NCBI RefSeq assembly: GCF_000314735.2
Contig: NZ_KB375270.1
Location: forward strand, 620,001-684,000
DNA length: 64,000 nucleotides
Source of the DNA: Afipia felis ATCC 53690
GTDB taxonomy: Bacteria > Pseudomonadota > Alphaproteobacteria > Rhizobiales > Xanthobacteraceae
Direction: 5' to 3'
Shown here: one piece after another, positions 51,860 to 62,795 of the stretch
How positions within the stretch are numbered: the stretch's first letter is position 1
Layout of the letters: every line of letters begins with the position of its first letter
Position numbers and translations under genes: made by a program
Notes under the pieces: generated by a model
Seen by the model: the letters and a program-made list of their open reading frames with translations, nothing else
Told to the model about the DNA's origin: nothing
Database searches by the model: none

Positions 51860-51935
51860 GAGCGCGTAGCTCAGGTGGTAGAGCACGTGACTTTTAATCA
51901 TGGGGTCGAGGGTTCGAGTCCCTCCGCGCTCACCA
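51860..51935 (+). tRNA. tRNA-Lys (UUU)
   Basis: 76 bases including an encoded CCA. The acceptor pairs GAGCGCG/CGCGCTC, the D arm is GCTC…GAGC, the anticodon loop CTTTTAA has TTT at 51893–51895, and the T arm is GAGGG-TTCGAGT-CCCTC. Its 3' half (51889–51935) is duplicated at 60169–60215 as the right attachment site of an integrated element, and the gene stays intact at the left end. Confidence 0.96.
51889..51935 (+). repeat. Left attachment site (attL) in tRNA-Lys
   Basis: 47 bases running from two bases before the anticodon loop (GACTTTTAA…) to the CCA end, identical to 60169–60215. It restores the tRNA gene at the left junction. Bases before and after differ between copies. Confidence 0.92.
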
Positions 51936-51969
51936 ATTCTATCATGATATCATAGTATTGCATGATAAG

Positions 51970-51998
51970 TGGCCGGATATTCTCGGCCATATTTTTTT
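51970..51998 (+). terminator. Rho-independent terminator downstream of tRNA-Lys
   Basis: TGGCCG and CGGCCA form a 6-bp stem with an eight-base loop, followed by TATTTTTTT. It lies inside the element, 35 bases past the tRNA, so the element supplies the tRNA's terminator. Confidence 0.75.
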
Positions 51999-52198
51999 GT
52001 GTCCGTCTCATGTCCGCAAATTGCTAGCCTGTGAATCCAATTCTGACCGAGAAACGACACGCGACGTTTTCCAGATGACAAGGATTGACCGCTCAAGACG
52101 TTCACGATACGTTCCAAATGTGCTGATGCCAGTAATCAGGGGATTTACTTCGCTGGCGTTTACCGAGAGGAGCACGCTCTAACCGAGCTAAATCCGCT

Positions 52199-52415
52199 AC
52201 CTTCGGGAGAAGGTTGATCGTGCGATGGCACGATAGGACAGGTTCCTAGGCTGGACTCTTTGAGCGGCCGGAAAATGTGGATGGCGAAGTGAGCCGGTAA
52301 ATCCTGTGGGATCTAGCAGGAACGCTCAGTGCGAGCGCCGGAGAGAGAACTGAACGCCCGAAAGGGCCCCATTCAGGTCTCGATCCGTTGCGCCTTAACC
52401 GTTGCGACGAGACCT
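52199..52415 (+). ncRNA. Candidate structured RNA upstream of the AlpA-like gene
   Basis: At least five stem-loops lie in 217 bases without an ORF: ACCTTC-GGGA-GAAGGT (52199–52214), ATCGTGC-GATG-GCACGAT (52217–52234), TCCTG…CAGGA (52302–52321), CGCTC-AGTGC-GAGCG (52323–52337), CTGAA-C-GCCC-GAAA-GGGC-CCCA-TTCAG (52350–52376) and AGGTCTCG…CGAGACCT (52375–52415). Two loops are GNRA tetraloops. The last stem ends just before the ribosome site of the AlpA-like gene. It may be a 5' leader or an independent RNA; no known family is recognised. Confidence 0.4.
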
Positions 52416-52433
52416 CAAAAGGAGATCATCGCA

Positions 52434-52667
52434 ATGGCTGCAGAAGTCAGCAATCACCCTGAATCAATACTCGACGGCTATGTGCTGGAAAGCGACTTTG
52501 CAAAGAGCGCAAAAGTCCATCCAAGAACCATCGCGCGGTATCGCACAAAGCCAGATGGGCTGCCCTACCTCGAATTTGGCGGACGAATCTACATTCCTAT
52601 CATCGAGGCGCGGGCATGGCTCAGCGAGCAGGTGAAGCGCCCGAATCCGCGCCGTAGAGCAGCGTGA
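52434..52667 (+). CDS. AlpA/MerR-type helix-turn-helix regulator of the element
   Basis: A 77-residue DNA-binding protein. YVLESDFAKSAKVHPRTIARY is a winged-helix start with the turn around KVHPRTIARYR, then GLPYLEFGGRIYIPIIEARAWL, the substrate-strand pattern of AlpA/excisionase-like proteins (seen as LPYLEFGGRIYIP). A strong AAGGAG lies ten bases before ATG 52434. In P4-type elements such proteins control the integrase or act as excisionase. It is adjacent to the DUF6074-like gene. Confidence 0.8.
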   Translation: MAAEVSNHPESILDGYVLESDFAKSAKVHPRTIARYRTKPDGLPYLEFGGRIYIPIIEARAWLSEQVKRPNPRRRAA

Positions 52668-52668
52668 C

Positions 52669-52917
52669 ATGGCGACCATCCTTCCGTTTCCGCTCGCAAG
52701 TCGGCGGGTGATGATTGAGAAGCAGGCGCGATATGCCGCCGAACTCAATCCTGATGCTGCTGAACGGCATATCCAGCAGCAACTCAAGGTTCAAGCTGAC
52801 AGCATGCGTCGTCGCGGCGTCGATGAGGACATCATCGCCCGCGAACTTCGCTGCATGGAAACAGCCATTCGGTCGGCTTTGTGCAGGGCATCGATGGGAC
52901 TAGGAGGCCGCACTTGA
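52669..52917 (+). CDS. Small phage-type protein (DUF6074-like)
   Basis: 82 residues opening MATILPFPLASRRVMIEKQA, with a mostly helical body (AAERHIQQQLKVQADSMRRRG) and a Cys-containing end. The ILPFPLxxRR start is typical of DUF6074 proteins seen in rhizobial prophages; this match is from memory. It starts one base after the AlpA-like stop and overlaps the next gene's TTG, so the three are one transcript. Confidence 0.65.
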   Translation: MATILPFPLASRRVMIEKQARYAAELNPDAAERHIQQQLKVQADSMRRRGVDEDIIARELRCMETAIRSALCRASMGLGGRT

Positions 52918-53501
52918 GCGCGCTTCCATCACTGACAGAAACGCAAAGGGTCCGGCGACAACAACGTCGCTTCATCAAAGACGGATCGGTGCCGGAAAAC
53001 GCACTGATATGGCGCGGCAACCGGGCCCGCGGGAAGGCGCTGCGACTTTGGCGTTCAAGCGTCAGCAGGGCATTTTCCGCTCGTCCTCGATGCCTGAGAG
53101 TTGCATGGATGCTCGAATGGTTATTCGGCAAGAAAGGCTACGCATTTCCCACAGACGCCTTTCTCGGGAACGAGCTCGGTATGAACCAGGACCATGTTCA
53201 AGAGGCATTGAAGGATCTCGAACGGGGAGGGGCGATCATCCGCGCGAGCGTTTTCGTCCGCGACAAGCCCGAACGCCGCATCTGGCCAAACGAGTCAATC
53301 TTACCCCCTGACACAAGGGGTAAGGTTACCCCCCGCCGGCGGGCCAATGACCCCCCTGACGCAAGGGGACAGACATCTCAAGAAGGAAGCAACTTCCCAA
53401 AAACGTTTCTATCGCGGACGGTTTTGGAGGCCCGAAGGGCCGCCCAAATCAACCAGCAACGAGAGCGTCGCACCGTCGAAAGCCCTGAGGACGCGGCGTG
53501 A
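52914..53501 (+). CDS. Winged-helix protein of the element
   Basis: 195 residues. The start is TTG at 52914, six bases after AGGAGG, overlapping the previous stop. After an Arg-rich N-terminus, WMLEWLFGKKGYAFPTDAFLG and MNQDHVQEALKDLERGGAII form a winged helix-turn-helix like replication-initiator or MarR-type domains. The tail carries a short repeat around TPPDTRGKVTP/DPPDARGQTS. Such proteins replace replication or regulatory genes in small elements. The role is inference. Confidence 0.65.
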   Translation: MSALPSLTETQRVRRQQRRFIKDGSVPENALIWRGNRARGKALRLWRSSVSRAFSARPRCLRVAWMLEWLFGKKGYAFPTDAFLGNELGMNQDHVQEALKDLERGGAIIRASVFVRDKPERRIWPNESILPPDTRGKVTPRRRANDPPDARGQTSQEGSNFPKTFLSRTVLEARRAAQINQQRERRTVESPEDAA

Positions 53502-53532
53502 TACGGCGGTCAATTAGCAATGCTTCGCATGA

Positions 53533-53577
53533 GCCCGCCTTGGCGGGCGTATGGGGTCAAGGGGGCAAGCCCCCTTG
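53533..53577. repeat. Two adjacent hairpins
   Basis: GCCCGCC-TT-GGCGGGC at 53533–53548 and CAAGGGGG-CAAG-CCCCCTTG at 53558–53577. The second recurs near mobilization genes in rhizobial plasmids and islands (recalled, not checked). They are followed by a ribosome site and a 21-codon frame at about 53616 that stops early. They could be terminators for the AlpA operon, or an oriT-like remnant. Confidence 0.5.
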
Positions 53578-53712
53578 CCTTACTCTTGCTAAAACTTTCA
53601 CATGAAGGAGAACGCAGTGTCGCCCGGATCAAGTGCGGCAACGGGGTTTGGGTGTCGCTTGAGTCGAGTCTATCTAGGGTAAAAAATACTTTTCATTCAG
53701 CCGAGGTACTTC

Positions 53713-54324
53713 ATGGAAAGAAGCGCGTGGCCAAAATTTGACGCGGGGAACGCAAACCATCTTCATGCCATCGGGGTAATAGCGGTGACCTACGTTCAGT
53801 TTGAGCGAAGCGTTGAAAGTATGTTTTTGCACCATCCTGCGAACAAGCTCATACCAAATGACCTTTTGACCCGCTACTTTCTCACCCTCAATGAGGAACA
53901 ACGGATTAAGGCGATCCATCAATTTTACAGCGAAGCTGAAAAAGATCAGCAGGTAGTCTACGCAGCTCACAATGTCCTTAAATTTTTCGACTGGGCTCAT
54001 GATACGCGCAACAAAGTCCTTCACTCCGAACGATATCCTGCTGGCGTCGGGGCAGATGCTGACAGGTTTTATGCGACCAAACGCGCAAGCAAGAGGGATC
54101 CATCCTCAAAGTATATTACTCTTGACCTCGATACGCTCAGGTCCATTGCTGACCGCATGCGGGAGGGCATCGTCGCGTCCGCAGAAATTAACATTCATGT
54201 GAGGTATCGCGACGAAAGCCATACGACAGAGAGTAAATGGATTTTGCCTTATCTGAACTCCAGCGGCCTTAAGCTTCTGCCGATTCCGGAGCGTATCAAG
54301 CTAGCCGATTATCCTTGGGGATGA
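53713..54324 (+). CDS. Putative HEPN-domain protein (cargo gene)
   Basis: 203 residues, mostly helical in the first half (NHLHAIGVIAVTYVQFERSV, LTRYFLTLNEEQRIKAIHQF), then FFDWAHDTRNKVLHSE. R99-N-K-V-L-H104 matches the R-x4-H active-site signature of HEPN ribonucleases, with the Asn next to Arg as in most active members. The C-terminal third is beta-rich and unfamiliar. It is AT-richer than its neighbours and has GAGG before the ATG. No antitoxin partner (MNT) is adjacent. HEPN membership is inference from the motif and helical context. Confidence 0.55.
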   Translation: MERSAWPKFDAGNANHLHAIGVIAVTYVQFERSVESMFLHHPANKLIPNDLLTRYFLTLNEEQRIKAIHQFYSEAEKDQQVVYAAHNVLKFFDWAHDTRNKVLHSERYPAGVGADADRFYATKRASKRDPSSKYITLDLDTLRSIADRMREGIVASAEINIHVRYRDESHTTESKWILPYLNSSGLKLLPIPERIKLADYPWG

Positions 54325-54578
54325 AGCCATTTCGACTTTCGTCCGCTACGGCCTCTTAGGTCGTATCGTGCGCTGATTGTTAGGCGGTGCTTCGCGAGTG
54401 AGATTTTAGCAGCTTCATTGTGTCTGACATGCACCGACTGTTGCTGACACAAGATACTTAATCATGCGCGTCATCATGACAAAACACTGAAATTATTGAC
54501 GAACTAATTCGTGCTGATATCTGTGTCCGTATCGCGTCCGCGTTGGACGAGGAAACGCAACGGATTTTCGCGCGATCG

Positions 54579-55184
54579 ATGACGTCACGAATTACTAGAG
54601 CCCGCTGTTCAATTTGTTCACATTCCGACCGGGCGCGGATTGAGATGGCGCGCATCAGCGGTGCCAGCCTCGACTGCATCGCAGCGACCTTCAACGTTCA
54701 CCGTGACGCGGTGTGGCGGCATTGCACGAAGCACGTCAGCGACGAGCAGCGCTCCATGTACCTGGCCGACGTCGATCTGACGGCTCTAGCGGCCCGCGCC
54801 AATGCCGAGAACATGAGCCTGATGGACTATCTCGCTATCGTGCGCGGGACGCTCATGGCGCAGATGCAGGTCGCTGCTGGCGTCAATGACCGGTCCAGTA
54901 CCGCGGCTCTGGCTGGCAAGCTGAATGAAACCTTGAAGCTGATCGGGCAGTTCACCGGCGAACTGATGAGGATCAGCCCGGCCCACATCACGAACAACTC
55001 GATCGTATTCATGAGCAGCCCGCTCTATGCGGAGCTCGAACGGATGCTGATCACCACGCTTTCCGAGCATCCAGAAGCCCTCGCAAAGGTCGTGGATGGC
55101 CTTCGGGCATTGGAGGCAAAAGCACCCGCGCCGGACATGTCAGCGATTGCTGCTCCTTTGCTGGAGCACCAGCATGCAGCCTAA
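54579..55184 (+). CDS. Small-terminase-like / DNA-binding phage protein
   Basis: 201 residues. RARCSICSHSDRARIEMA is a CxxC-containing start, ASLDCIAATFNVHRDAVWRH a helix-turn-helix, and the rest helical with AALAGKLNETLKLIGQF. It overlaps the large terminase by 11 bases, which points to the small terminase subunit that recognises phage DNA. The ATG at 54579 is chosen; a TTG at 54543 adds 12 residues. No ribosome site is convincing for either. Confidence 0.65.
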   Translation: MTSRITRARCSICSHSDRARIEMARISGASLDCIAATFNVHRDAVWRHCTKHVSDEQRSMYLADVDLTALAARANAENMSLMDYLAIVRGTLMAQMQVAAGVNDRSSTAALAGKLNETLKLIGQFTGELMRISPAHITNNSIVFMSSPLYAELERMLITTLSEHPEALAKVVDGLRALEAKAPAPDMSAIAAPLLEHQHAA

Positions 55185-56247
55185 CGCACAGATGTTTGGC
55201 AAGTTGGCGGATGCGCTTTCGACAAGTTGGCGCGTCTTGGCCCGGCCGTCGCAGTTGCCACCTGATGGCGATTGGAACGGATGGCTGGTGATGGCCGGCC
55301 GTGGCTTTGGCAAGACCAGAACCGGCGCCGAATGGGTCAAAGAACAGGTTGAGGCTGGTACTGCCAAGCGCATTGCGCTGATCGCACCGACGAGCGCCGA
55401 TGCCAGAGACACGATGGTCGAAGGCGAGAGCGGAATTCTCTCCATCTCGTCGACATGGTGTCGCCCCGACTATGAGCCGTCCAAGCGTCGTCTGACGTGG
55501 CCGAATGGCGCGGTGGCATCCACCTTCAGTTCTGAGGAAGCGGATCGCCTGCGTGGTCCCCAGTTCGATCTAGCATGGGCTGACGAGTTGGCGGTCTGGA
55601 ACGAGCCGCAAGCAACGTGGGATATGCTGATGTTCGGCCTTCGTCTGGGCAAGCATCCGCGCTGGCTGGCGACGACAACGCCGAAGCCGATCAAACTTCT
55701 CAAGGAACTGCTCACGCGCGAAGGAAAGGACGTCGTTGTCACGCGAGGATCGACGTTCGAGAACGAAGCCAACTTGGCCGCTCCCTTTCTGACAGCCATC
55801 AGGAAGCGCTACGAGGGCACAAGGCTGGGTAGACAGGAATTGAATGCCGAACTGCTGTCCGACACACCCGGCGCGTTGTGGCAGCTAGACCAACTCGACA
55901 AATGCAGGGTTAAGCGCGCCCCTGAGCTTAAACGGATCGTGGTGGCGATCGATCCTGCTGTTAGCAACAACGAAGGGTCCGACGAAACCGGAATCATCGT
56001 CGCCGGCATCGATCACAACGAACACGGATATCTGCTGGAGGATTGTTCGGGCCGATACGCCCCACACGAATGGGCGGCCAAAGCCACTGCAGCTTATCGG
56101 AGATGCAGCGCAGATCGGATCATCGCTGAGAAGAACCAGGGCGGCGATATGGTCGAGAACACGCTGCGGATGATTGATCGCAGCATCCCGTGTCATTCGG
56201 CCTGCAATATTGACCCCGTAAGCCGGGGGATCGGCGTCCAAAATTGA
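55174..56247 (+). pseudogene. Large terminase subunit, truncated by IS21-family insertion
   Basis: DNA-packaging motor of a tailed phage. Residues 1–339 are native: Walker A AGRGFGKTRTG (K47), Walker B LAWADE (D137-E138), and the nuclease acids D260 (VAIDPAVS) and E319 (IIAEKNQGG). The IS begins at 56191; the last 18 codons to the stop at 56247 come from the IS end. The third nuclease Asp and the C-terminus are gone, so packaging activity is lost. The ATG at 55174 has GGAG upstream. No continuation appears after the IS. Confidence 0.88.
56191..56201 (+). repeat. Left terminal inverted repeat of the IS
   Basis: TGTCATTCGGC at the left boundary, matching the reverse complement of 58658–58668 at 10 of 11 bases; it interrupts the terminase frame. 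Confidence 0.85.
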
Positions 56248-56303
56248 CCCCCTACCATTAGCCTGTTGCGCTGCCTGCTTCGTAACAAAGCAGGTGGTCG
56301 GAG

Positions 56304-57803
56304 ATGCTGATCGTGGAGACGATTGCGCGGATACGGCGTGAGCACTTCATCAAGGGCAAGACGATCAAGGAGATTGCCCGGGACCTGAAGGTGTCACGGA
56401 ACACGGTGCGGAAGGTGCTGAGGTCGGGAGAGACCTCATTTGAGTACGAGCGTGTTGTCCAGCCGAGGCCCAAGCTCGGAAGATGGGCAACGGAGCTCGA
56501 CGTGTTGCTGGCGGCAAATGCGACCAAGGCCGCTCGCGAGCGACTGACGCTGATCCGGATCTTCGAAGAGCTGCGCGGGCGTGGATACGACGGTGGCTAC
56601 GATGCCGTGCGGCGTTACGCCAGACGATGGAGTACGGACCGTGGACAATCGACGGCTGCGGCCTATGTCCCGCTGAGCTTTGCGCCTGGGGAAGCTTATC
56701 AGTTCGACTGGAGCCACGAGGTAGTTCTGCTTAATGGCGTGACGGTGATGGTGAAGGCCGCCCACGTCCGGCTGTGCCATAGCCGTATGTTGTTTGTGCG
56801 GTGCTATCCGCGTGAGACGCAGGAGATGGTGTTCGACGCTCACGATCGGGCGTTCGCGCTGTTCAAAGGCACCTGCGGGCGCGGCATCTACGATAACATG
56901 AAGACCGCGGTCGAGACGATCTTCGTCGGCAAAGGTCGTCTCTACAACCGCCGCTTCATGCAGATGTGCAGCCATTACCTCGTCGACCCGGTGGCCTGCA
57001 CGCCGGCATCAGGCTGGGAGAAGGGCCAGGTCGAGAACCAGGTCGGCCTTGTCCGCGAGCGCTTCTTCACACCGCGGCTTCGGTTCAAAACTCTCGACGA
57101 GTTGAACGCCTGGCTGCTGGACAAGTGCATCGCCTACACGAAGGCACACCGTCATCCGGAACTGACCGAGCAGACGATCTGGGAGGTGTTCGAAGCCGAA
57201 CGCCCAAAGCTGGTTCCCTATGCGGGCCGGTTCGACGGATTCCATGCGGTTCCGGCATCGGTCTCGAAGACCTGCCTGGTCCGCTTCGACAACAACAAGT
57301 ACTCGGTCGCGGCCAGCGCCGTCGGGCGGCCGGTCGAGGTTCATGCTTACGCTGACCGCATCGTTATCCGCCAGGACGGACGTATCGTTGCCGAGCATCC
57401 GCGCGCCTTCAGTCGTGGCGAGACGACCTATGATCCTTGGCATTACGTGCCGGTGCTGGCTCGCAAACCCGGCGCCTTGCGCAACGGCGCTCCCTTCAAG
57501 GACTGGGTGCTGCCGGCTGCGATCGAGCGCATACGGCGCAAGCTTGCCGGTGCCGATGATGGCAACCGGCAGATGGTCGACATCCTCAACGCAGTTCTGA
57601 CCGACGGTCTGCCCGCTGTCGAGGTGGCCTGTGCCGAGGCGATCGTCCAAGGCGTCCATTCCGCCGATGTCGTGCTCAATATCCTGGCTCGGCAACGAGA
57701 GCCCACTCCACCCGCCAACATCATGACGCCGGCTGCGCTGACGTTGTGCCATGCCCCGATCGCCGACTGTGCCCGCTACGACAATCTGAGGAGAACCATC
57801 TGA
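56304..57803 (+). CDS. istA: IS21-family transposase IstA
   Basis: 499 residues. [22 protein letters not shown] is the N-terminal helix-turn-helix (about 20–45). The DDE/RNaseH core has [26 protein letters not shown] and [18 protein letters not shown] with the Glu. The C-terminal domain ([20 protein letters not shown]) is the Mu-type SH3-like barrel. Its stop overlaps the istB start by one base (TGATG), and GGAG precedes the ATG. It looks intact. Confidence 0.95.
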
Positions 57804-58666
57804 TGGAACGTACTCAACTCTTCGACCTCATGGGTGAGCTCAAGCTCTATGGCATGAAGGCCGCCTTCGACGAGATCATGACGACTGCGATCAAGCGTCA
57901 GCATGAACCCCAGCGCATTGTCGGCGACCTGCTCAATGCCGAGATCAACGAGAAGCAGGCCCGCTCGATCAAGTACCAACTCACCATCGCCAAACTTCCC
58001 CTTGCGAAGGACCTTGAGGACTTCCAGTTCACGGGCACTCCCATCAACCAGACGCTGGTCAATGACCTTGCCAGCGGCGGCTTCATCGCCCAGCAGCGCA
58101 ATGCCGTCCTGATCGGCGGCACCGGCACCGGCAAAACTCATCTGGCCATCGCCATCGCCAGAAGCTGCATCCGATCCGGTGCCCGCGGGCGCTTCTATAA
58201 TGTGGTCGACCTCGTGAACCGCCTGGAGATCGAGACCCGAAGCGGACGGCAGGGTCGGGTCGCCGAGCATTTGACCCGGATGGACTTCATCGTCCTCGAC
58301 GAACTGGGCTACCTGCCGTTCGCACAATCCGGTGGCCAATTGCTGTTCCACCTCATCAGCCGGCTCTACGAGCGCACTTCCGTCGTCGTCACCACCAATC
58401 TGGCATTTGGCGAATGGCCCAGCGTGTTCGGCGACGCGAAGATGACGACCGCGTTGCTCGACCGTCTGACTCACCATTGCGACATCGTCGAGACCGGTAA
58501 CGACAGCTGGCGCTTCAAAAGCCGCGACGACGATCAAGCCACTCGCGCTCGTCTCGTCTCCGCAACCCCGGCCGGCTCCGACGACACGAGCGCTACCGCC
58601 AAACCAGCCCGATCAAAGGGGTCAAAATTGGACGCCGATCCGGGGTCAAATTTGAACGCCGATTGA
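57803..58666 (+). CDS. istB: IS21-family helper ATPase IstB
   Basis: 287 residues, AAA+ helper of IstA. Walker A is [19 protein letters not shown], Walker [33 protein letters not shown] is the sensor region. The C-terminal tail (about 265–287, [20 protein letters not shown]) runs into the IS terminal repeats, a longer end than usual. GAGGAG precedes the start. The gene is intact. Confidence 0.95.
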
Positions 58667-58668
58667 CA
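58658..58668 (-). repeat. Right terminal inverted repeat of the IS
   Basis: GCCGATTGACA at the right boundary; its reverse complement matches the left end. TTAAGATCTG follows, unlike the left flank. Confidence 0.85.
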
Positions 58669-58766
58669 TTAAGATCTGTTTTCTACCCCGCACACCGACG
58701 TCGGTCTGGCGCTCCAACACTAATTCAACGCGGATGACGCAAGTCATAGAGTTACTTGCGTTTGCG

Positions 58767-60005
58767 CTACCGGGCAGATCCAAGGGAAATAACTTCGGCC
58801 GACGCGCCGCTTCCATCAACGATCAATCCGACACGCTCCGTAGCAGTTCGCAGCGGATCATCGAACAAGTGGGCATAGCGAGCCGTGGTGGCCGGCTGAG
58901 TGTGCCCGAGCAACTGTCCGATGATTGGAAGCGACATGCCTGAGCTTGCCAGAATGCTCGCGTAGCTATGGCGTAGATCATGTACGCGGACTGCCTTTGG
59001 ACCGATTAGCTTTGCTGCCTTACAGATTTCATCCCAAGGGCCTTTGATGCCTTCGCGTGGTCCACCGTTCACGCGACCGACAAAAACCCATTTCGGTAGT
59101 TCAGTGCCAGCTTTCTTTGCCGCAGCCTTCGCCTCCGTATGCAGGGTCGAGAGTAACTGCCGGGCAGGCGCCGAAAGCGGCACACGATGCTCGGTCTTTT
59201 GCTTGGTGGTGTGGCCCGGCTTAGTCCAGACGCCTTCCTTGAGATCGAACTGATCCCAAGTCGCGTTCAAAACCTCGCCACGACGCGCTCCGGTGAGCAG
59301 CAGTAAGCGAATTATGTTCGCGGCCTGCTTGTCCTCATGCGCATTCACGGCTGCCAGTAGGGCTTTAATCTCGTCTGGCGATAGGTAGCGGTGCCGCTTA
59401 ACCTCCTGGTTACGCTCGACGCCCTTGGCTGGATTATCGGTGCGCCATTGCCAACGGATTGCAAGGTTGAACATTTTGGACAGTACGGCGAGCGCGCGAT
59501 TGGCAGCGTAGGGGCCTCCATCGCGGGTGATGCTGTGGTGCAGATCGTCGATGTCGCTGAACGTGACCTCGGAAACCTTGCGGTGTTTGAATTTGGGCAG
59601 AATCCATTTGTCGATCATACCCTCGTAAAGGGCAGTGGTGCTCTCACGGTTCTTGCGCTCGGAATGCTCCTCGAGAAACTTTTTGGTCATGTCAGCGACC
59701 GTCTTAGCGTCACGGTCAGCCTCTTTTTCGGCCATGGGGTCTTCGCCCCGGTCGATCCTGCGGCGCAGTTCTTCAGCCTCCTGACGGGCTGCCGTGGTCT
59801 TCCACGTCGGATACTGGCCAATGGTGAATCGCCGCTCGCGTCCGGTACGGGTGCGGTAGTTCAAAATGAAGGATCGGGCGCCAGCCGCAGTCACGCGAAC
59901 GCCGAAACCTCGCACCGCTTTTTCCCCGCCGTCATAAGTGACGCGGTTGCCTTTATCCGGGGAAGGGAGGTCTTTCACGATGCTATCTGTCAGTTTCTTC
60001 GACAT
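58767..60005 (-). CDS. Site-specific tyrosine integrase (P4-type)
   Basis: A 412-residue recombinase. It has the N-terminal DUF4102 arm-binding domain (about 1–90, KLTDSIVKDLPSPDKGNR), a core-binding SAM-like region (about 100–195) and a catalytic domain with R241 (LLTGARRGEVL), Lys in KQKTEHRVPL, H342-x-x-R345 (HDLRHSYAS), H368 (LLGHTQPATTARYAHL) and Tyr377. All catalytic residues are present, so it is probably active. The ATG at 60005 (MSKKLTD) is used; one at 60041 adds 12 residues. It transcribes away from attR, 164 bases off. Confidence 0.94.
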   Translation of the reverse strand: MSKKLTDSIVKDLPSPDKGNRVTYDGGEKAVRGFGVRVTAAGARSFILNYRTRTGRERRFTIGQYPTWKTTAARQEAEELRRRIDRGEDPMAEKEADRDAKTVADMTKKFLEEHSERKNRESTTALYEGMIDKWILPKFKHRKVSEVTFSDIDDLHHSITRDGGPYAANRALAVLSKMFNLAIRWQWRTDNPAKGVERNQEVKRHRYLSPDEIKALLAAVNAHEDKQAANIIRLLLLTGARRGEVLNATWDQFDLKEGVWTKPGHTTKQKTEHRVPLSAPARQLLSTLHTEAKAAAKKAGTELPKWVFVGRVNGGPREGIKGPWDEICKAAKLIGPKAVRVHDLRHSYASILASSGMSLPIIGQLLGHTQPATTARYAHLFDDPLRTATERVGLIVDGSGASAEVISLGSAR

Positions 60006-60168
60006 CTCGTGTCCGCCTTGTGTCCGCACAAAGAAAGGCATTCGGTGTCACTGACTGTCTAACCGATGTTATGATTTGTCAAACACGGTCCTTTTAGGAT
60101 CAACGTGTTATGCGCGGACACAGCGCTTTTCCAATAATTTCATATGGATGGCTGAAACGCCAAAAACC

Positions 60169-60215
60169 GACTTTTAATCATGGGGTCGAGGGTTCGAGTC
60201 CCTCCGCGCTCACCA
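60169..60215 (+). repeat. Right attachment site (attR)
   Basis: The 47-base duplicate of the tRNA-Lys 3' part, 164 bases upstream of the integrase start. The 5' part of a tRNA is missing (bases before are AAAAACC), so this is not a tRNA gene. Confidence 0.92.
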
Positions 60216-62275: not shown

Positions 62276-62795
62276 ATGAACATCAGATCATCCATCATCG
62301 CCGGGAGCATTCCTGCTCTTTGTTGCCCCAGCGTCCTGCCCAACCAATCGTCGGCCAAGCCTCTATCATCGATGGCGACACTATCGAGATCCATGGACAT
62401 CGCATTCGACTGTGGAGAAACGACGTGCCGGAATCCTCCCGGCTTTGTCGAAACGCCAATAGCGATCTGTACCGATGCGGAGCCGATGCTGCCAACAAGC
62501 TGGCGAGCTTCACCTCAATTAAGACTGTTAGCTGCACGTCGGTTGATCGGGATCGCTATGTGCATCGTGGCGCAGTGCTCGGTCGGTGCGGTGGATATGG
62601 CGGGAGTGGCTGGTCCGGTCTAGCCTAGCGCTGGATTGGCTCCGGTAGTCACGTGGCTGTTACGGAGAGGCGCAGTAGAGCGCCAGCCGGGCCGGGAAGG
62701 GTATCTGGTCCGGAACGTGGGCGGTGCCATGGGAGTACCGGGCCTGCGTCAGCGGCGGTGGTCGCCCGGAAGTCTGCTCGGACGGGGAGAGGTAG
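62276..62795 (+). pseudogene. Decayed thermonuclease (SNase)-family gene
   Basis: Joined across frames, the sequence gives an exported SNase protein. A signal-like MNIRSSIIAGSIPA is followed after a shift by VGQASIIDGDTIEIHGHRIR and SSRLCRNANSDLYRCGADAA, then shifts to VAQCSVGAVD, and shifts again to LDWLR-stop-SRGCYGEAQ-stop-SASRAGKGIWSGTW and PWEYRACVSGGGRP. At least three frame breaks and two in-frame stops are present, so it is not functional. The catalytic acidic/Arg positions around GDTIEI are partly retained. Confidence 0.8.

Follow-up and report, generated by a model that had tools for sequence, protein, structure and literature searches.

The DNA analysed here is a 64,000-nucleotide stretch of the genome of Afipia felis ATCC 53690 (contig NZ_KB375270.1, positions 620,001 to 684,000; hereafter the window), and its subject is a small integrated element seated in a tRNA-Lys gene. 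The target gene, tRNA-Lys (ttt), was located with ARAGORN at 51860..51935 on the plus strand; it is whole at the left end of the element and is the sole tRNA gene of the window. Its 3' part forms the left copy of a 47-bp attachment (att) repeat (51889..51935), and an exact second copy is found at 60169..60215. Because the repeat is the 3' part of the tRNA gene, a chance origin is unrealistic; a repeated tRNA 3' end is what is expected at the targets of tyrosine integrases. The element can be taken to start at 51889 or 51936 and to end at 60168 or 60215.

Between the borders lie, in this order, an alpA-like gene, a DUF6074 gene, a helix-turn-helix gene, orfX, terS, a truncated terL, an IS21-family insertion sequence (IS) and, on the opposite strand, the gene of a tyrosine integrase. 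The integrase (58767..60041, minus strand, 424 aa; PF00589, PF13356 and phrog_1) is encoded beside the right att copy by a single open frame; its domains are Phage_integrase, arm-binding and core-binding, and the R, H-x-x-R, H and Y residues were found to be kept on reading by eye. The AlpA-like regulator or excisionase (52329..52667, plus strand, 112 aa) was recognised by phrog_66 (E 3.5e-6) and by a 67-residue match (51% identity) to a gene of the related element in genome G397; no Pfam match was obtained. The TerS-like small terminase (54543..55184, plus strand, 213 aa; profile match from 54579) was called because of its size and its place directly before terL, and no fitting Pfam or PHROG family was found for it, the single match being to a transposase family at E 0.02. 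The 5' part of terL (55174..56190, plus strand) encodes the ATPase domain (Terminase_6N, E 6.6e-32) and part of the nuclease domain, the Terminase_6C match covering positions 2-79 of 155. Apart from the terminase, Pfam and PHROG scans of the genes between the borders revealed nothing recognisable as a head or tail gene. A first-pass annotation of this DNA had reported the 47 identical bases, an intact integrase beside the right copy, an AlpA-like regulator and the lack of capsid, portal and tail genes, all of which agree with these results. It had also placed terminase genes between the repeats; both genes are indeed there, and the truncation of terL by the IS had been missed.

The gene terL is interrupted by a 2,478-bp IS21-family copy (56191..58668, plus strand; istA 56304-57803, istB 57746-58666) without target duplication. 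The start of the IS was set at 56191 because the two other copies that were looked up in the same genome (L262, L263) are identical over the whole 2,478 bases. The identity of the three copies suggests recent activity. A 7-bp target duplication is present in one of the three and absent from the window copy and the remaining one. Translations of the DNA beyond 58668 showed no terL tail; since terL ends at 56190, sequence adjoining the IS has been lost. The lost tail would carry SPDRxDALVWxL, present in 5 of 5 intact relatives aligned, a motif which we take to include a catalytic aspartate of the large-terminase nuclease. Exchange between IS copies was considered as the source of the missing end and rejected, because the flanks at the window copy, inspected by eye, do not complement the flanks of the two others.

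Integrase and terS are on the same strand in 18 of the 19 relatives in which both were recognised (G451 is the exception), and the alpA-terL block of the window runs opposite to the integrase. An inversion together with a deletion beside the IS would be the simplest account of what is left without the IS, 8,280 bp minus 2,478 bp or about 5.8 kb, the size already given in the first-pass annotation. Besides the end of terL, other genes have probably been lost from the window copy. As terL is broken, this copy should not package with its own terminase, and its packaging step must fail or use the TerL of a helper phage. The element ends look whole although the middle does not. With an apparently whole integrase frame and two such end regions, the window copy might still excise.

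Two TGTCCG direct repeats 11 bp apart (52000..52016, plus strand) are possible arm-binding sites of the integrase, as is a TGTCCG site near the integrase-side end (60115..60120, minus strand). Such sites lie near both ends at a similar distance from the att core in the window and in G397, and a like pair is present near the tRNA-side end of G278. Because the hexamer occurs 10 times on either strand of the 8,233-bp element, three times at these ends, the case for end sites rests on the arrangement that the window has in common with G397 and G278. Different short end repeats were seen by eye in G119 and G129, which have other integrases.

The DUF6074 protein (52669..52917, plus strand, 82 aa; PF19551, E 4.6e-15) gave a weak head-protease match (E 0.02), which was not counted as a head gene. 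The helix-turn-helix protein (52881..53501, plus strand, 206 aa) is weakly like phage replication-initiation proteins (phrog_26369, E 4e-4; phrog_345, E 6e-4). The product of orfX (53713..54324, plus strand, 203 aa) had no family match in the Pfam and PHROG scans; its RNKVLH was seen by eye to resemble what we take to be the HEPN ribonuclease motif, and the gene may be defence cargo. Outside the right att copy, a frame at 62320-62628 reads by eye like a fragment of a staphylococcal nuclease; one protein of that family was among the proteins of relatives scanned below.

For an empty-site comparison, G255 and G221 of the same genus, two of the three genomes closest by left flank, were used, and G154 was left out. 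Both have a single copy of the 47-mer at the matching tRNA-Lys within 15-19 kb, and none of the tested marker proteins was found in the 15-19 kb around that gene. A clean empty site was not found: the right flanks of both genomes are unlike that of the window, and in no relative examined for such a site is the right flank adjacent to the tRNA.

Relatives were collected mainly through TerS. A search of a genome and metagenome set gave 100 proteins, the closest being P0001 (95% identical), P0003 (90%), P0005 (87%) and P0002 (82%). The single-sequence query matched in 10 of 296 genomes of a same-family sample and TerS profile A1 in 6 of 397 genomes of an order-wide sample (own genome and some weak partial matches counted in both); the same profile matched in 29 of 265 genomes of genus g25. 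In the order-wide search G583 was the only strong new relative, and four others were weak. The statement of the first-pass annotation that a satellite with packaging genes would be uncommon in this clade is thus about right. One TerS relative is Bradyrhizobium sp. JYMT SZCCT0428. Long stretches were read at 36 TerS places and four integrase finds. After G146 (a 5.9-kb contig) and the integrase finds G063 and G061 had been dropped from maps and marker tests, 37 relatives were kept, 35 found by TerS and two by integrase (G278, G009), with stretches of 13-36 kb; G446 and G332 are each counted twice, with two places each. Further TerS places, without long stretches, are in G011, G212, G284, G528, G815, G648, G724 and G884 and at a second place of G346.

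In 17 of the 37 relatives, the 3' end of a tRNA gene is repeated at the integrase-side end of the element. The sites are tRNA-Lys (G129, 15.7 kb; G119, 14.9 kb; G397, 15.5 kb; G278, 16.1 kb; G583, 15.9 kb; G009, 14.9 kb, with a repeat of only 19 nt), tRNA-Arg (G371, 15.5 kb; G303, 18.2 kb; G340, 15.6 kb; G461, 14.3 kb; G477, 16.1 kb; G518, 16.0 kb, bounded by two tRNA-Arg genes), tRNA-Gln (G428, 16.1 kb; G354, 10.4 kb; G471, 16.2 kb; G493, 9.9 kb) and tRNA-Ser (G338, 18.4 kb, repeat of 22 nt). The sizes range from 9.9 to 18.4 kb, and 13 of the 17 fall at 14.2-16.3 kb. G373, with a TerS fragment only and a 31-nt tRNA repeat 1.2 kb off, was kept outside the 17. Among the relatives in tRNA-Lys, G397 (53% identity) and G278 (45%) have integrases related to that of the window. 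Relatives with the same borders and a full phage gene set, which according to the first-pass annotation would mark the element as only a remnant, were not found; no full set was recognised in G397 or G278.

Genes of 27 relatives and the window were grouped. An integrase was present in 23 and TerS in 24 of these sequences, the window being included in both counts; TerS was overlooked by the simple gene picker in G332b and G496. Wherever TerS was mapped in a relative, TerL follows it (23/23). AAA_25, D5-like and Toprim genes are common. Among the sequences in which AlpA-like genes were sought, they were identified in the window, in G397 and G446 and in a few more. Group C2, conserved and mostly helical, was modelled on the G397 copy (233 aa, mean pLDDT 84, pTM 0.64), and no match at E <= 0.001 was found in PDB or BFVD. 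A further group, C9 (L134:4317-5075 and relatives; about 220-310 residues in six mapped relatives), lies near tape-measure-like genes in several relatives; its start resembles proteasome-like hydrolases by eye, and the G129 copy had 0 matches among 50,697 phage records.

Head genes were sought in several ways. Marker searches of the 37 relatives gave one portal (G129), one capsid (G009) and ten tape-measure-like genes; no portal, head protease, scaffold or capsid was found in 34 of the 37, the exceptions being G129, G009 and G278. Portal profiles were built from the genes that follow TerL in viral relatives (phrog_113 and phrog_156 portals). In the control, 50 of the 65 viral loci whose sequence extends 1.5 kb or more past TerL have a portal gene directly after it; none of the 37 relatives matched these profiles. 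PF04860 was also tried and gave 0 matches at the element places of 24 genomes. It was dropped as evidence of portal absence because 24 control viral records gave none either; PF04860 misses these portals, the gene after TerL in viral relatives being mostly a portal of other families. The capsid family PF05065 matched somewhere in 14 of 26 genomes and inside an element only in G009. From 16 relatives, 211 non-core proteins with a length of 95 residues or more were scanned against the PHROG and Pfam libraries. Among the families listed, which were the best 25 of 65, 25 of 51 and 25 of 32 in three scans and all in the fourth, one portal and one major-head match were present. PADLOC, run on 114 of the 211 proteins, reported three families with one protein each.

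These results bear on a first alternative, that the elements are capsid-forming phage-inducible chromosomal islands (cf-PICIs), which make their own heads, package themselves and steal tails, and that their capsid genes have diverged beyond recognition. Carriage of TerS and TerL is a property of cf-PICIs in the published excerpts consulted (PMC10690885), and within the roughly 15 kb of G009 a terminase-like gene is present together with a protease and a capsid. Set against this are the 34 relatives devoid of head markers and a gene after TerL that is never a portal of the types tested, and we consider this alternative very unlikely.

Both terminase subunits were compared with viral proteins. 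Of 50,697 phage records, the only ones matched by TerS were two of archaeal viruses (28%), and two IMG/VR scans gave no match for it. For TerL, a tree was computed from 66 viral TerLs, the second TerL of the same genome and 16 unsplit element TerLs (that of the window entered twice). The viral rows were taken from the best 80 IMG/VR matches to the window TerL among those listed, with near copies removed. In this tree, which has long branches and viral rows picked by closeness to the window, 14 of the 16 unsplit element TerLs, including that of the window, form one branch (support 100/99) apart from the 66 viral ones. In 17 of the 37 relatives, two genes make up the large terminase, one for an ATPase part (about 250 residues) and one for a nuclease-like part (about 228). 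Eleven such loci were mapped (among them L134:10693-12137 and L135:10145-11547), with an overlap of the two genes of 10 nt in eight, 4 nt in two and 23 nt in one; at six further loci (L241-L244, L246, L249) the halves were found as separate tblastn matches. A narrow literature search found no paper on split large terminases. Known viruses probably have such a split as well, since each half of L134 matches a PHROG family of about its own length (phrog_7579, terminase, 239; phrog_27743, unknown function, 233).

The window TerL is 47% identical to the second TerL of the same genome, which adjoins the only PF04860 portal of that genome and one of its two PF05065 capsids. If this locus, which we take to be like a gene transfer agent (GTA), supplied the particles, the element might load its DNA into host GTA heads by means of its related TerL. 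Heads of GTAs hold about 4 kb, too little for 15 kb, and a PF04860 portal is absent from 12 of 24 genomes with such elements; of the readings considered, this is the one to which we give least credence.

A second element was seen in the same genome at L250 (G000:C1:759000-778900), outside the window and beside a tRNA-Ser. Recognised in it were genes for an integrase, a head protease and a capsid, as well as a replication-initiation-like gene and a tape-measure gene; neither a relative of the window TerL nor a PF04860 portal was found there. Between its integrase and that of G451 the identity is 76%; G451 has TerS and TerL, and no capsid was recognised in its 19.9 kb.

The window element is, in our judgement, likely to belong to a group of phage satellites that integrate into tRNA genes, have their own terminase and use the heads of a helper, and to be a rearranged copy disabled by the IS. 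The group is found in Bradyrhizobium and related genera, with bounded relatives mostly of about 14-16 kb. Use of borrowed helper heads is proposed because no portal or capsid gene was found in nearly all relatives. The first-pass annotation had left a choice between a prophage reduced by deletion and a compact satellite with packaging genes; what was found speaks for both a satellite lineage and a reduced copy of it.

The sequence of events, drawn up by analogy, would be as follows. Entry or induction of a helper would switch on AlpA, as in accounts of other satellites (PMC10690885, PMC10803314, PMC11389934, PMC4936722). The integrase, probably with the AlpA-like protein, would then excise the element at the duplicated tRNA end, and its own replication module or gene would copy it. 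Finally, its own TerS and TerL would select element DNA and pump it into empty heads of the helper phage.

Several observations count against the satellite interpretation. A repeated tRNA end of element size was not found in 20 of the 37 stretches, in part because stretches or contigs end, and many of the 37 stop short of one or both element ends. For window genes other than int, alpA, terS and terL no counterpart was found in these relatives, and only 3 of 292 genomes, that of the window included, have the replication-like gene. The portal of G129 belongs to phrog_145 (DUF4055), G009 has a capsid and a protease, G278 a head-protease-like gene as well as a tape-measure-like one, and one scanned protein is ClpP-protease-like. 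Tape-measure-like genes are present in 10 of the 37 relatives, and a G420 gene matches a viral group of unknown function located about 3.4 kb after TerL in phages. All of these genes would also fit mosaic prophage decay. Divergent portals and capsids can escape profiles, and the IMG/VR scans for TerS rest on short exact peptides. The TerLs of G333 (L247) and G518 (L248) form a separate branch among the viral rows, and the split TerLs lie outside the tree.

Part of this would follow from ordinary prophage decay, in which the window element and its relatives would be what remains of temperate phages after each genome, independently, had lost the head and tail genes by deletion. The plain damage to the window copy, the head or tail genes kept in single relatives (G129, G009, G278 and the ten with tape-measure-like genes) and the two TerLs nested among viral ones agree with this, and incomplete prophages of this order are analysed in a Hyphomicrobiales survey (PMC11080155, consulted as excerpts). 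In the same excerpts, terminase genes are reported as preferentially lost from incomplete prophages, whereas here they are kept. Separate decay would also have to account for 17 relatives alike in size, with a recurring gene order and a repeat of the tRNA end, a single TerL branch for 14 of 16, a TerS practically absent from the phage records searched and the lack of a portal behind TerL in every relative. A full phage gene set around the same TerS-TerL pair was found in none of the 37 relatives, the 50,697 phage records or the two IMG/VR scans, though unsampled phages may have one. Decay alone is regarded as improbable, if less so than the cf-PICI alternative.

The proposed satellite group was compared with known systems. 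It has two of the general traits of satellites, namely an integrase with att repeats (in the window and 17 of the 37 relatives) and no full structural gene set. Phage-inducible chromosomal islands (PICIs) have an AlpA-like regulator and replication genes, and to our knowledge they are in general without a TerL of their own. The present elements resemble them in chromosomal integration and in size, SaPI1 being near 15 kb (PMC4936722), and some PICIs carry TerS (PMC10690885). According to the excerpts of the latter source, described PICIs use the terminase of the helper and have at most their own TerS, whereas terL is present here, truncated in the window and after TerS in 23 of 23 mapped relatives. 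With cf-PICIs they share the carriage of both subunits, TerL being broken in the window. They differ in the head: cf-PICIs encode capsid, protease, portal and connectors (PMC10690885, as excerpted), whereas no such gene was recognised in the window and capsid and portal were each found in 1 of 37 relatives, connectors not having been searched by name. The element is filed as a variant of the satellite kind, outside PICIs because TerL is present and outside cf-PICIs because heads are absent.

The PICMIs of Vibrionaceae are alike in having int, AlpA, a replication gene and no head genes (PMC10803314). Many of them also have a gene, iolg, that overlaps int by 4 nt (PMC10803314), and a gene overlapping the integrase stop by 4 nt was seen in G397 (L172:5382), G338 (L166:7371) and G119 (L135:2452). 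The prototype has int, alpA and a primase at fis, whereas the present elements sit in tRNA genes. PICMI115, in the portions of its description available, consists of six genes and lacks a homologue of packaging-redirecting genes such as terS (PMC10803314); the present elements are larger and carry TerS and TerL. AH14b of Pseudomonas sp. ANT_H14 comes close, with 16.8 kb, an integrase, an AlpA-like protein, a primase and no structural genes, and is packaged in helper heads (PMC4936722); it differs in that no terminase gene is identified in the excerpted account of it. VEIMEs and tycheposons are integrative elements proposed as satellites of marine phages (PMC11389934).

No family such as the present one appears in the titles and abstracts of the literature searched. 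The satellites described in the excerpts consulted borrow the large terminase of the helper or bring terminase and heads together. A lineage with TerS and TerL and without recognisable heads raises the question of whether the motor of a satellite can act on a portal that is not its own, and thus bears on the specificity of terminase-portal docking; its TerS can serve as a marker for finding such elements in this clade of soil- and plant-associated bacteria. We regard it as an even call that the group is a separate satellite family, the mirror image of cf-PICIs, with a complete terminase of its own, split in TerL at about half of the loci, in some members a tape-measure-like gene, and a head from the helper. 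If so, the TerL of the element would have to dock on the portal of the helper.

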